36,046 nucleotides of DNA from Sphingobacteriaceae bacterium (GTDB lineage: Bacteria > Bacteroidota > Bacteroidia > Sphingobacteriales > Sphingobacteriaceae), in contig JAIEMU010000139.1 of the NCBI GenBank assembly GCA_019751895.1, positions 1-36,046 of the forward strand, written 5' to 3'. Position 1 is the first letter of the stretch; every line of letters begins with the position of its first letter. The notes under the pieces were generated by a model that saw only the letters and a program-made list of their open reading frames with translations, was not told where the DNA came from and did no database searches. Position numbers and translations under genes: made by a program. Below are positions 5,342 through 18,523 of this stretch, piece by piece.

Positions 5342-5374
5342 AAAAAAAGCTCGATGAAAATCGAGCTTTTTTTT
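5342..5374. terminator. Bidirectional intrinsic terminator
   Basis: A perfect 9-bp stem (AAGCTCGAT at 5347-5355 with its complement at 5360-5368) closes a GAAA tetraloop. It is flanked by A7 on the left and T8 on the right, so it can terminate both rfbC (+) and the OmpA-lipoprotein run (-). Confidence 0.9.
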
Positions 5375-14245: not shown

Positions 14246-14283
14246 AACCGCAACATTTATCATAAATGTTGCGGTTTTTTTTT
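14246..14283 (+). terminator. Intrinsic terminator of the tRNA unit
   Basis: A 12-bp perfect stem (CCGCAACATTTA at 14248-14259 with its complement at 14263-14274) closes a 3-base loop and is followed by nine T residues. It ends the tRNA-fMet/tRNA-Glu transcript 45 bases before ruvX. Confidence 0.93.
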
Positions 14284-14744: not shown

Positions 14745-15374
14745 ATGATTAATAAAGAATTACAAGAACTTTTGCTGCAATACTGCGAACCAGAAAGCGA
14801 ACTTCTTAAACACATCGATAGAGAAACGAATTTGAAAGTAATAATGCCAAGGATGATTTCTGGTCATTATCAAGGAAGATTTTTGAGTATGCTAAGTAAA
14901 ATGATTTCTCCAAGCAGAATACTTGAAATTGGAACTTTTACAGGCTACGCTACGCTTTGTTTAGCCGAAGGTTTGGTTTCAAATGGAATCATCTACACCC
15001 TTGATGTAAATAAGGAGCTAGAGCGCATGGTTAGAGTTAATTTTGAAAAGTCAGATTTAAATCAAAAAATAAAGTACATTTTAGGTGACGCAACAAAAAC
15101 ACTCAGTGAAATAGAAGAAACTTTTGATTTGGTATTCATTGATGCAGACAAAAAAAATAACGGCACTTATTACGATATGATATTTGACCGCGTAAGATCT
15201 GGAGGTGTAATCATTGTTGACAATGTATTATGGAGTGGGAAAATACTGCAAAATAGCCCCGATAAAAATACGCAAAGCATAATTTCGTTTAACGAAAAAA
15301 TTACCAACGACAAGCGTGTAGAAAAGATTATTCTTCCAATACGTGATGGAATGCTTGTGATTCGGAAAAAATAA
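14745..15374 (+). CDS. SAM-dependent O-methyltransferase
   Basis: A 209-residue class I methyltransferase of the Methyltransf_3 (caffeoyl-CoA/catechol O-methyltransferase-like) family. SAM motif I is EIGTFTGYAT (61-70), the acidic residue after the second strand is D88, metal-ligand type residues are D133 in FIDADKK and D159/N160 in VDNVLW. Bacterial members methylate catechols or modified tRNA wobble uridines (TrmR type); the sequence alone does not choose between them. It is the second gene of the ruvX operon and is followed by a hairpin terminator. Confidence 0.9.
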   Translation: MINKELQELLLQYCEPESELLKHIDRETNLKVIMPRMISGHYQGRFLSMLSKMISPSRILEIGTFTGYATLCLAEGLVSNGIIYTLDVNKELERMVRVNFEKSDLNQKIKYILGDATKTLSEIEETFDLVFIDADKKNNGTYYDMIFDRVRSGGVIIVDNVLWSGKILQNSPDKNTQSIISFNEKITNDKRVEKIILPIRDGMLVIRKK

Positions 15375-15377
15375 AAT

Positions 15378-15408
15378 AAAGAGACTGCCCTTTTTGGACA
15401 GTCTCTTT
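15378..15408. terminator. Hairpin after the O-methyltransferase
   Basis: AAAGAGACTG (15378-15387) pairs with CAGTCTCTTT (15399-15408), extended by CC/GG pairing with one bulged base. It can terminate the ruvX operon. Its AGACTG core also matches the far end of the IS relic, so it may have been recruited from a transposon end. Confidence 0.65.
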
Positions 15409-15766
15409 ATCTATTCAATAAAATATTTCTCAAAATAGACTGACTATCAATACTACTAATGACTCGATTGAAAGCCATTCTCTTTTGAAAGACAATGTTC
15501 TTCAATGTCATTCCGCGAATCTACCCCACAAATGATCGCAATAATTGACGTACCAAGGATGTCAATTAAATTATGAAACTTGATTAAAATGAGCCGATTG
15601 CATTCTAATTTTTAGATGTAAAACAAACGTGGAATCATTGTATAATTCAGCTAATTCTGTGGTTTTTTAAAAAAATACTACGTTTGCCTAGAACCTGATA
15701 CAATACCTAGCTCATTATTACTATCAAAATTAATTATAAATTTGTCCTAAATTTTTGGGACAGTCT
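15382..15766 (-). mobile_element. Decayed IS element, ISAs1-like
   Basis: This gene-free stretch holds transposase fragments bounded by short inverted ends. Read inward, the left end is AGACTGCCC (15382-15390) and the right end is AGACTGTCC (complement of 15758-15766), matching at 8 of 9 bases. Between them lie an AT-rich non-coding part and the transposase relic at 15407-15581. No target-site duplication is evident. The element is far too short to encode a whole transposase and must be immobile unless acted on in trans. Confidence 0.5.
15407..15581 (-). pseudogene. ISAs1-family transposase fragment, frameshifted
   Basis: Two reading frames give pieces of the N-terminal part of an ISAs1 (H-repeat) transposase. 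Frame one (15581 down to a stop at 15456-15458) reads KFHNLIDILG followed by AIICGVDSRNDIEE, matching the family's conserved LIDIL...A..CG.D.W.DIEEFG block. Frame two (15478-15407) reads FNRVISSIDSQSI, matching the FNRVFSxLDP block that follows in intact proteins. The linking IPSHDT segment is lost and the frame shifts near 15475. The remaining C-terminal two-thirds, including the later catalytic residues, is absent. The match is from memory of the family and needs a database check. Confidence 0.65.
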
Positions 15767-15790
15767 AAAATTCAATTGATCTTTTTTGTA

Positions 15791-16708
15791 TTATTTTAAG
15801 GTTATTTTACCTTTTCCTAAAGTTGTACCATCAGAGAATAAAACAACAGTGTAGGTTCCCTTCTCAAAGGGGAAGTTATTCCATTCAATTTTATAGCTTA
15901 CTACATCTCTATTATATTCAATTGATGAAACATACGTGGCTGTCATTTCCTCTCCATCGGCTTCAAATTTATTGTTTTCAGGTGCAATTAGTTTTCCTGA
16001 AGGGTCGAAAACCTGCATGTAAACTGTGTGTATGCCCTCTTCTGCTAATAAGTTAGGAGTAATGTTGTAATTGATGTCTAATTTATTTGCTTGTTTTGCT
16101 TTTTCAACAATAGTCGGCCTGCTGTTTGGTTTGCTTTTTTTTGCAATAATTTCAACATATTCGGCTTTTAATGCCGCAGTTGATTTTATCTTCTTTTCAA
16201 GAATAACGTTTTGCTCTGATAAGCTATTTAATTTTGAATTTAAACCGCCAATACTATTGTTGAAACTATCGGTTTTTTTCTTTAAATGATTATTTTGTAT
16301 TTTTAAATCTACATTTTCTAAGTTCAGTTCTTCTAATCTTGTTTTGTAGGCAACAATATATTTTTTTAATTCAGTAATTTCTTTCTTTGCTTTTTCTAAT
16401 TCTGATTTACTAAATCTCCCTGTTAAATAAGTTAATTTTAGCTCGTTTAATTTACGCTTAATAGATTCATTTTCGATTTGCAGGTTGGTGTTTAGAGTTG
16501 TGTTTTCTGCATTAATTTTGATTAATTCAGCTTCAAGAGTATCTATTTCACGTTTTAAAGTAACTTTATCGGCTTCAAGCACTGCTATTTGTTGATTCTG
16601 CTTTTGGGTTTTATATAATAAGAAGAAATTAATTCCTAAGAAACTAATAATAATAATGATTAGTAAATAAATTTTACTTCGAATACTTCTTTTTTGGGGT
16701 ATTTCCAT
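15791..16708 (-). CDS. Membrane-anchored coiled-coil protein, function unknown
   Basis: A 305-residue protein with a basic N terminus (residues 1-12), one transmembrane helix (about 13-32), and a continuous coiled coil from about 36 to 185 rich in Leu/Glu/Lys/Asn. A C-terminal beta-rich domain (about 205-305) looks immunoglobulin-like and contains GIHTVYMQVFDPSGKLI and PFEKGTYTVVLFSDG. It most likely points into the periplasm. Similar flavobacterial proteins are sometimes labelled as chromosome-partitioning proteins; nothing here supports that. It stands alone between the IS relic and a 244-base intergenic region, with a -7 box close to its start. Confidence 0.8.
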   Translation of the reverse strand: MEIPQKRSIRSKIYLLIIIIISFLGINFFLLYKTQKQNQQIAVLEADKVTLKREIDTLEAELIKINAENTTLNTNLQIENESIKRKLNELKLTYLTGRFSKSELEKAKKEITELKKYIVAYKTRLEELNLENVDLKIQNNHLKKKTDSFNNSIGGLNSKLNSLSEQNVILEKKIKSTAALKAEYVEIIAKKSKPNSRPTIVEKAKQANKLDINYNITPNLLAEEGIHTVYMQVFDPSGKLIAPENNKFEADGEEMTATYVSSIEYNRDVVSYKIEWNNFPFEKGTYTVVLFSDGTTLGKGKITLK

Positions 16709-16716
16709 TTTTATTT

Positions 16717-16724
16717 CAAATGTA
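16717..16724 (-). promoter_or_regulatory. -7 box directly before the coiled-coil gene
   Basis: Read on the minus strand, TACATTTG matches TAnnTTTG and ends eight bases before the ATG at 16708. The predicted leader is only a few bases. No TTG at -33 spacing is visible. Confidence 0.45.
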
Positions 16725-16893
16725 ATTTAAGAACGGTTTACTAATTTTTTTGTATGGGATAAAGTTGTAAAAATTATTTTCGTATTCTTACAAAAATCAA
16801 TAAAATATTTATTAAAAAAAATTTTATTACAAATTATTTGTTTTTAAGCATATTATATGATTGAAAAAACCTTATTTTGTATTTAAAAGTAAC

Positions 16894-16926
16894 GTGAAAA
16901 ACATTTCCGTGTTGAATGCTTTTCAC
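16894..16926. repeat. Imperfect palindrome upstream of the GHL10 gene
   Basis: GTGAAAAACATT (16894-16905) pairs with AATGCTTTTCAC (16915-16926) with one mismatch across a 9-base spacer. It ends 26 bases before the ATG at 16953. It could be an operator or an mRNA hairpin. The rest of the 244-base gap (16709-16952) is very AT-rich; apart from the -7 box at 16717-16724, I see nothing else in it. Confidence 0.4.
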
Positions 16927-16952
16927 ACTTCACTCATTGTAATTTATCAAAA

Positions 16953-18482
16953 ATGTTAAAAAGTATTATTTCTGCGGTTTTTTGTTTCAGTTTTATTTTT
17001 TGTTTGGCACAAAATGATCCTAAACGTGAGTTTAGAGGAGTGTGGGTGGCTACGGTGAGTAACATCGATTGGCCATCTAAACAGGGTTTGAGCACTGAAG
17101 AACAAAAAAAGGAGTTAATTGATATTTTAAACCTACACAAAAAGAATGGTTTTAATGCTATTTTTTTACAAATTAGACCTACGGCAGATGCTTTTTATAC
17201 GTCGTCTTCAGAGCCTTGGAGTAAATATTTGATGGGGCAACAAGGAGTTTCACCAATGCCATTGTATGATCCTTTGGCTTTTGCCATCGCCGAAGCGCAC
17301 AAAAGAGGGATGGAATTGCATGCTTGGTTTAATCCTTACCGAGCTACAATGAATGCTGAAAGTGGATCGAAAGTAGCTGAAAATCATATTACCAAAACCA
17401 ATCCTGAATTATTTTATGCTTATGGAGGGCAACTTTTGTTTAACCCTGGTTTGCCAGAGGTGCAAGACTACATCATTAAAATTGTATTAGACGTAGTAAA
17501 TAGATATGATATAGATGGCGTTCATTTTGACGATTATTTTTATCCGTATCCTATTAAAGGTCAGAATATAAATGATAAAGAAACGTTTGAAAAGTACAAC
17601 AATGGCTTTACTTCTATTGGCGATTGGCGAAGAGATAATGTAGATAGATTGATTAAATCGGTAAATGATAGTGTACATTTTCATAAGAAACATGTCAAAT
17701 TTGGGGTGAGTCCGTTTGGGATTTGGCGAAATAAAAAAGAAGACTTTTTGGGTTCCAAAACAGATGGATTGTCAAATTATGAAGCTTTGTTTGCCGACTC
17801 TCGTAAATGGATAAAAGAGGGATGGGTGGATTACATCAATCCACAAATTTATTTTACTTTTAGTAGAGTGGCTGCACCATTTGGGGTTTTGGTTGATTGG
17901 TGGGCTGAAAATAGTTTCGACAGGCATTTATACATTGGTCAAGCGGCTTATTTGGTCAATGAATCAAAAAGTGCGAATGCTAAAGCTTGGCAATTGCCGA
18001 ATCAAATTCCTGATCAAATTAAATACATTAGAAATAAACCACAAGCACAAGGAAGTGTGTTTTTTAGCTCTAAATCTTTTAGCACCGTAGCAAAAGGATT
18101 GGGTGATTCTTTGCGAAAAAATCACTATAAACATCCAGCTTTACCCCCTCAAATGCCTTGGCTGGATAGTGTTTATCCAAACAAAGTAAGAAATTTGATG
18201 GCGGAATCGTTGAAAGGGAATATCAAATTGACTTGGAAAGAGCCTTTTATTGCTGAAGACGGCGAAACGGCATCGGGTTATGTGATCTATCGTTTCAACT
18301 CGGGAGAGCCTGTGGATATTACAAGTTCTAAAAATATTTTAAGCGTGAAATACAATAACGAACCTGTTTTTATAGATGAAACTACTCAAAAAGGCCAGTT
18401 GTATGTTTACATGGTTACGGCTTTAGATAGGCTAAAAAATGAAAGCGAAGCTAGCGACGCTTTAAGTGCTATGGTAGATTAA
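16953..18482 (+). CDS. Exported GHL10-type glycoside hydrolase
   Basis: A 509-residue protein with a signal peptide (1-19) followed by a TIM-barrel domain of the glycosyl-hydrolase-like 10 family (PF02638, related to YngK). The diagnostic start FRGVWVATVSNIDWP is seen, then FNAIFLQIRPTADAFY, ELHAWFNPYR, YDIDGVHFDDYFYP and WVDYINPQIYF. The acidic pair in GVHFDDYF is the likely active-site region. A C-terminal fibronectin-III-like domain (about 415-505) begins near LTWKEPF. Relatives are proposed to cut peptidoglycan-derived or surface glycans; the actual substrate is unknown. It is monocistronic and ends at a bidirectional terminator shared with sodA. Confidence 0.92.
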   Translation: MLKSIISAVFCFSFIFCLAQNDPKREFRGVWVATVSNIDWPSKQGLSTEEQKKELIDILNLHKKNGFNAIFLQIRPTADAFYTSSSEPWSKYLMGQQGVSPMPLYDPLAFAIAEAHKRGMELHAWFNPYRATMNAESGSKVAENHITKTNPELFYAYGGQLLFNPGLPEVQDYIIKIVLDVVNRYDIDGVHFDDYFYPYPIKGQNINDKETFEKYNNGFTSIGDWRRDNVDRLIKSVNDSVHFHKKHVKFGVSPFGIWRNKKEDFLGSKTDGLSNYEALFADSRKWIKEGWVDYINPQIYFTFSRVAAPFGVLVDWWAENSFDRHLYIGQAAYLVNESKSANAKAWQLPNQIPDQIKYIRNKPQAQGSVFFSSKSFSTVAKGLGDSLRKNHYKHPALPPQMPWLDSVYPNKVRNLMAESLKGNIKLTWKEPFIAEDGETASGYVIYRFNSGEPVDITSSKNILSVKYNNEPVFIDETTQKGQLYVYMVTALDRLKNESEASDALSAMVD

Positions 18483-18488
18483 AACATA

Positions 18489-18523
18489 AAAATCCCCATT
18501 TTGACATTCAAAATGGGGATTTT
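18489..18523. terminator. Bidirectional terminator between GHL10 gene and sodA
   Basis: A perfect 14-bp stem (AAAATCCCCATTTT at 18489-18502 with its complement at 18510-18523) encloses a 7-base loop. A and T tracts on both sides let it serve both convergent genes. Confidence 0.92.

Follow-up and report, generated by a model that had tools for sequence, protein, structure and literature searches.

What lies in the interval between the O-methyltransferase gene and the coiled-coil gene of this Sphingobacteriaceae contig? The window, by which we mean the whole stretch of 36,046 nucleotides that was analysed, is a single contig from an assembly of 2.32 Mb in 217 contigs, with an estimated completeness of 79.67%. 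An earlier note described positions 15382 to 15766 as a gene-free relic of a single ISAs1 element, bounded by short inverted ends and perhaps representing an internally deleted, MITE-like derivative. The stretch is indeed gene-free, as the list of open reading frames contains no ATG, GTG, or TTG frame of 40 or more amino acids from the stop of the O-methyltransferase gene at 15374 to that of the coiled-coil gene at 15791. However, the segment proves to be an ordinary composite relic, and the first observation was only partly right. The interval is better described as remnants of two IS families lying next to a terminator than as a deleted ISAs1 element or MITE. This correction in itself matters little, and a by-product of the analysis concerning an IS3 group is the more useful part. 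The features of the interval and its neighbouring genes are listed in Table 1.

Table 1. Features in and around the interval, with positions given in window coordinates.
Feature	Positions	Strand	Basis
O-methyltransferase gene, left neighbour	14745-15374	+	Open reading frame list; Pfam PF01596, E 1.7e-50
Terminator-like hairpin, holding the claimed left inverted end	15374-15412		Fold compared with shuffles
ISAs1 transposase scrap, approximately residues 28-96 of the 386-residue relative L118	15420-15596	-	Pfam, tblastn, frameshift-tolerant alignment
Relic sequence, 94 bp	15597-15690		Alignment to IS3 scores no higher than shuffles
Right (3') end of an IS3-family element, holding the claimed right inverted end	15691-15767	+	Alignment compared with shuffles
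Tentative surviving half-terminator (right arm and T run) at the IS3 insertion	15768-15787		Layout like the right flanks of other copies
Coiled-coil gene, right neighbour	15791-16708	-	Conserved in the genus

The transposase remains are real. In a frameshift-tolerant alignment with the ISAs1 protein of L118, both blocks are joined on the minus strand (15581-15420) with a score of 89, compared to a mean of 27.6 and a maximum of 47 for 40 shuffles. The scrap retains approximately 70 of 386 residues, is out of frame, and carries two frame shifts with 16 residues missing, much as the earlier note had it when describing two out-of-frame blocks, a deleted gap, and a truncated remainder. A piece of the ISAs1 protein from L119 aligns with block 1 only (15596-15498), scoring 79 against a shuffle maximum of 36 (n=40). 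The proteins of two ISAs1 copies that belong to other genera in the family also find the scrap by tblastn, with E values of 4.2e-6 (15596-15498) and 7.3e-5 (15581-15501) that refer to a database of one window. Taken alone, block 2 (FNRVISSID, out of frame) is weak, as 67 of 1000 dinucleotide shuffles equal its score and 15 of the 279 other stretches compared within the window reach it.

The N-terminal region of an ISAs1 transposase (PF13808) is thus recognisable at 15420-15596, and matches to curated models all fall short of their cut-offs because just a scrap survives. The minus-strand peptide beginning FHNLIDILG scores 26.4 bits against PF13808 (E 7.2e-6), where the curated cut-off is 32.3. 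A genome scan places the same domain at 15468-15578 with a sub-threshold E value of 6.4e-5, and the NCBIfam ISAs1 model gives an E value of 0.13, which is likewise below its cut-off. The scan revealed no intact ISAs1 element over the cut-off in the genome's own assembly, which proves little because that assembly is 79.67% complete. A second weak match is located on contig C53 (E 0.38).

Intact relatives establish what the ends of such an element look like. Three ISAs1 copies in the family carry terminal repeats of the CAGGG type (CAGGGYYRACRYAT), and in the three intact copies the repeat lies 186-192 bp ahead of a conserved HNL-type codon. Counting from the corresponding codon in the window, the repeat is expected at approximately 15761-15767. 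This position falls within IS3 sequence, and therefore the 5' end of the ISAs1 element is missing too. A candidate repeat at 15684-15697 has mismatches at four of 14 positions and was not counted, since the window contains 30 such matches; no other CAGGG-type repeat was found in the segment. Four of the five family copies that have both ends are flanked by an exact 10-bp target duplication. No direct duplication is evident in the sequence beside the two proposed ends at 15382 and 15766.

The proposed ends themselves have other origins. On the left, the 9-mer AGACTGCCC at 15382-15390 is the arm of a hairpin, where it pairs with GGACAGTCT at 15396-15404. This hairpin begins on the final base of the O-methyltransferase gene. 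When read on the minus strand, it has 17 pairs (counting G-T pairs), a 5-nucleotide loop, and a T-rich tail that faces transcripts of the coiled-coil gene. The plus strand forms 14 pairs with one mismatch, and its T-rich tail is short. None of 200 shuffles folds equally well on either strand (z -7.22 for plus and -7.73 for minus). A stable hairpin followed by a run of T nucleotides is thus present on the minus strand, and by its form this element is an intrinsic terminator. Two further genomes of the family (L016 and L022) have hairpins of this type, and a search for the identical arms separated by 2-10 nucleotides gave one occurrence in the genome that carries the window.

On the right, the inverted copy of the 9-mer at 15758-15766 is the terminus of an IS3-family element. 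The terminal 77 bp share 84% identity with L002 and 82% with L003, both from the same genome, and their alignment to the IS3 end scores 94 against a shuffle maximum of 33 (n=200). L002 is the one full-length IS3 copy found in this genome. It encodes orfA (HTH_Tnp_1) and orfB (rve), and its orfB matches the NCBIfam model NF033516 for IS3 transposases with an E value of 5.7e-96, so the window shares its terminus with an element encoding an IS3 transposase. Full-length copies of this group, which we take to be IS150-like, have an HTH orfA and an rve orfB and are approximately 1.4-1.45 kb long. The left end, the open reading frames, and the target duplication are all missing at the window site, where IS3 similarity is confined to 15691-15767, and therefore this sequence is a relic. 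The genome also carries a second relic of this IS3 right end behind decayed sequence (L003:1160-1575, G000:C10). Transposase scraps in L003 that resemble IS1182 by eye have no Pfam support. A hairpin within the IS3 end (approximately 15742-15764) was rejected as a terminator, since stretches containing it have no folding advantage over shuffles (z -0.11 and -0.47). Immediately beyond the IS3 terminus, positions 15768-15787 might tentatively be read as the remaining half of a terminator that was hit by IS3; a search for its left partner arm found none.

These results bear directly on the proposal of a single shrunken element. A genuine ISAs1 scrap does reside within the segment, and the two 9-mers AGACTGCCC / AGACTGTCC do exist as inverted copies. 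However, the left 9-mer forms one side of a hairpin stem and the right one is an IS3 terminus, ISAs1 ends in the family are different, and a flanking duplication is absent. Moreover, AGACTGTCC occurs three times in the window when one mismatch is allowed, compared to 2.23 expected occurrences. A MITE would be expected in multiple copies sharing both ends, and this segment occupies a single place in its own genome. A search of 399 family genomes (own genome included, not exhaustive, with few candidates scored per genome) returned no second copy with both ends. Matches to the segment were found in 19 of these genomes, of which 12 are to the IS3 end and seven are only to pieces of 22-41 bases. 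We therefore reject a MITE or a deleted ISAs1 element with ends of its own. The reading as a single ISAs1 derivative is largely refuted and is left with a very small probability. Of the earlier description, the transposase scrap stands, whereas the boundaries and the single-element status do not.

Because both boundaries are foreign to ISAs1, whose copies read in this family end in CAGGGYYRACRYAT, the segment is a composite of a host hairpin, an ISAs1 scrap, and an IS3 end. What these three parts are and how they are arranged is established: the hairpin is followed by a leftward N-terminal piece of ISAs1 and then by the rightward last 77 bp of IS3. As a whole, the segment is best explained as an accumulation of IS remnants at a junction in gene order rather than as one element, and we assign this reading a probability of roughly 0.85. 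Counted against it are the 94 bp assigned to none of the three parts, the sub-threshold PF13808 and NCBIfam scores, the weakness of block 2 when taken alone, and the missing left arm of the tentative split terminator.

The junction itself is visible in the arrangement of the neighbouring genes. The O-methyltransferase is most similar to Pedobacter proteins (approximately 75% identity), and no Pfam family matches the coiled-coil protein above its cut-off. Homologues of the coiled-coil gene are present in 76 of 79 genomes of the genus. In all 19 relatives inspected, this gene converges on a histidine kinase gene and has a GHL10 gene on its opposite side. In the window, the coiled-coil and GHL10 genes are divergent (15791-18482), and this pair is kept in all 19. 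Furthermore, the coiled-coil gene lies near none of 53 O-methyltransferase loci, for which flanks of up to 4 kb (several of them shorter) were searched. Given the histidine kinase arrangement and these 53 loci, the junction looks lineage-specific. The IS relics sit on this junction, which is not seen in the relatives examined, and IS-driven rearrangement is a plausible cause. No histidine kinase was found in the own genome at E 1e-20, in a search that had no positive control, and this proves little because the assembly is 79.67% complete. The gene that follows the O-methyltransferase gene in L036 has in this genome a homologue with only 35% identity, on another contig.

A sequence of events can be proposed for this presumably Pedobacter-like genome. 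An IS3 element would have inserted into a terminator loop next to the coiled-coil gene, in keeping with the sites of many related copies, and an ISAs1 element would have landed in or next to this copy. Deletions, perhaps the same ones that joined the two genes, would have removed most of both elements, such that no mobile element is left in the segment. The hairpin that survives has its T-rich tail on the minus strand and may today terminate transcripts of both genes. The IS scraps themselves are probably inert.

A variant of this history is nested insertion, wherein ISAs1 inserted into the IS3 copy and the pair decayed together, rather than the two being neighbours that were joined by deletions. 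In its favour, the IS3 end comes next after the ISAs1 scrap, similarity to IS3 begins sharply at 15691, and the poor terminal-repeat match noted above straddles this position. However, that match is one of 30 equally poor ones, the spacing from the HNL-type codon would put the repeat inside IS3 sequence, and no IS3 sequence to the left of the scrap beats shuffles. Nested insertion is somewhat unlikely. A different origin has also been considered for the left hairpin, which might be a remodelled IS3 end instead of a host terminator. By direct reading, the hairpin and the IS3 end both carry AGACTGCCC followed by TTTGGACA in the same order. Yet local alignments of 15374-15690 with the IS3 element score 25 and 29, below the shuffle maxima (38 and 34, respectively), and hairpins of this type exist in L016 and L022, which makes such an origin very unlikely. 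The composite of a host terminator and two decayed elements remains our preferred reading.

The flanks of several copies of the IS3 group contain hairpin arms with T runs, and the insertion sites of this group were therefore compared. The sites were hand-picked and not random, comprising the best earlier matches and 40 places chosen among the matches listed; loci L034-L086 (53 in total) were excluded from the scan. Of 47 copies with both ends, four had a flank of less than 40 nucleotides, which left 43 with full flanks, and 13 repeated a site already counted, which left 30 distinct sites. When the empty sites are rejoined in silico, they fold at a mean of -21.4 kcal/mol, compared to -11.9 kcal/mol for swapped flanks. 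Exact 3-bp duplications flank 19 of the 30 sites and 4-bp duplications flank three more, whereas a 3-bp match occurs in 3.2% of 870 swapped flank pairs. Eight sites lack any duplication of 2 to 5 bp.

A strict stem test, which demands at least seven pairs with at least three G-C pairs and a loop of no more than 12 nucleotides at the insertion point, is passed by 21 of the 30 true sites. Of the 870 swapped pairs, 269 pass as well, which probably reflects the A- and T-rich arms that terminators have in common. When the joint is shifted by 10 or 15 nucleotides, between one and four of the 30 sites pass, and none of 10000 flank permutations reaches the mean stem score of the true sites. The strongest nearby hairpin, in a scan reaching up to 300 nucleotides on each side (127-140 nucleotides on the left for seven sites), lies within 4 nucleotides of the insertion point at 19 sites. 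It lies elsewhere at the other 11, of which seven have imperfect A-rich and T-rich arms by eye, and L114, L123, L125, and L126 are sites that look unlike terminators. L114 and L126 come from one genome (G287) and have similar flanks (AAAGCCC..GAGGACTTG..AGGGCTG) that resemble a dispersed repeat. The clear cases are L002, with the duplication ATT, and L024, with the duplication GTA, where the duplicated triplet is in the loop of both hairpins. The L024 copy (131-2575, G187), from another genus, is full-length and adjoins a homologue of the window's coiled-coil gene with 31% identity.

In this hand-picked sample, the IS3 group prefers hairpin loops. Sites with strong hairpins carry the genus labels g1, g5, g16, and g23 (L002, L103, L006, and L113, respectively). 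We consider it fairly probable that an IS3 lineage spanning at least these four labels targets the loops of intrinsic terminators, where it keeps both arms and duplicates 3 bp. The choice would depend less on sequence than on hairpin shape, either as extruded DNA or during termination itself. Such loops would offer a low-cost intergenic niche, and relics would be left at split terminators. As a control, five ISAs1 copies were inspected by eye, and none is inserted in a hairpin loop (L118 and L119 lie at a hairpin edge), a comparison that lacks statistics because five copies are too few. The window holds further strong terminator-like hairpins at 14246-14276, 18489-18523, and 5342-5373, with 14-16 pairs and loops free of IS sequence, which could be empty IS3 targets.

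Compared with known systems, the window's ISAs1 scrap is set apart from intact family members by its broken frame, its small size, and the lack of a recognisable CAGGG-type repeat. The IS3 relic likewise retains its terminus and lacks all the rest, while its full-length relatives often reside in the loops of terminator-like hairpins. More generally, palindromes at the edges of IS scraps may be host terminators, and such repeats call for caution when the ends of an element are assigned. A search of the open-licence literature found no report of IS3 insertion in terminator loops. The IS3-family elements IS1397, ISKpn1, and ISPsy8 are described as targeting REP repeats (PMC1525189). These elements resemble the group described here in choosing palindromes, and differ in that their targets are REP repeats, whereas those of the present group appear to be unrelated intrinsic terminators. 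IS1272 and TnSha1, of the IS1182 family, target hairpins that include terminators, and IS1272 makes blunt cuts that delete part of the hairpin and create no duplication (PMC4923244). The IS3 group instead keeps both arms and duplicates 3 bp at 19 of the 30 sites. A terminator-loop-preferring IS3 group would thus be a natural comparison both with IS1272, which destroys its hairpin, and with IS1397 and its REP palindromes, and would make hairpin recognition by an IS3 transposase testable.
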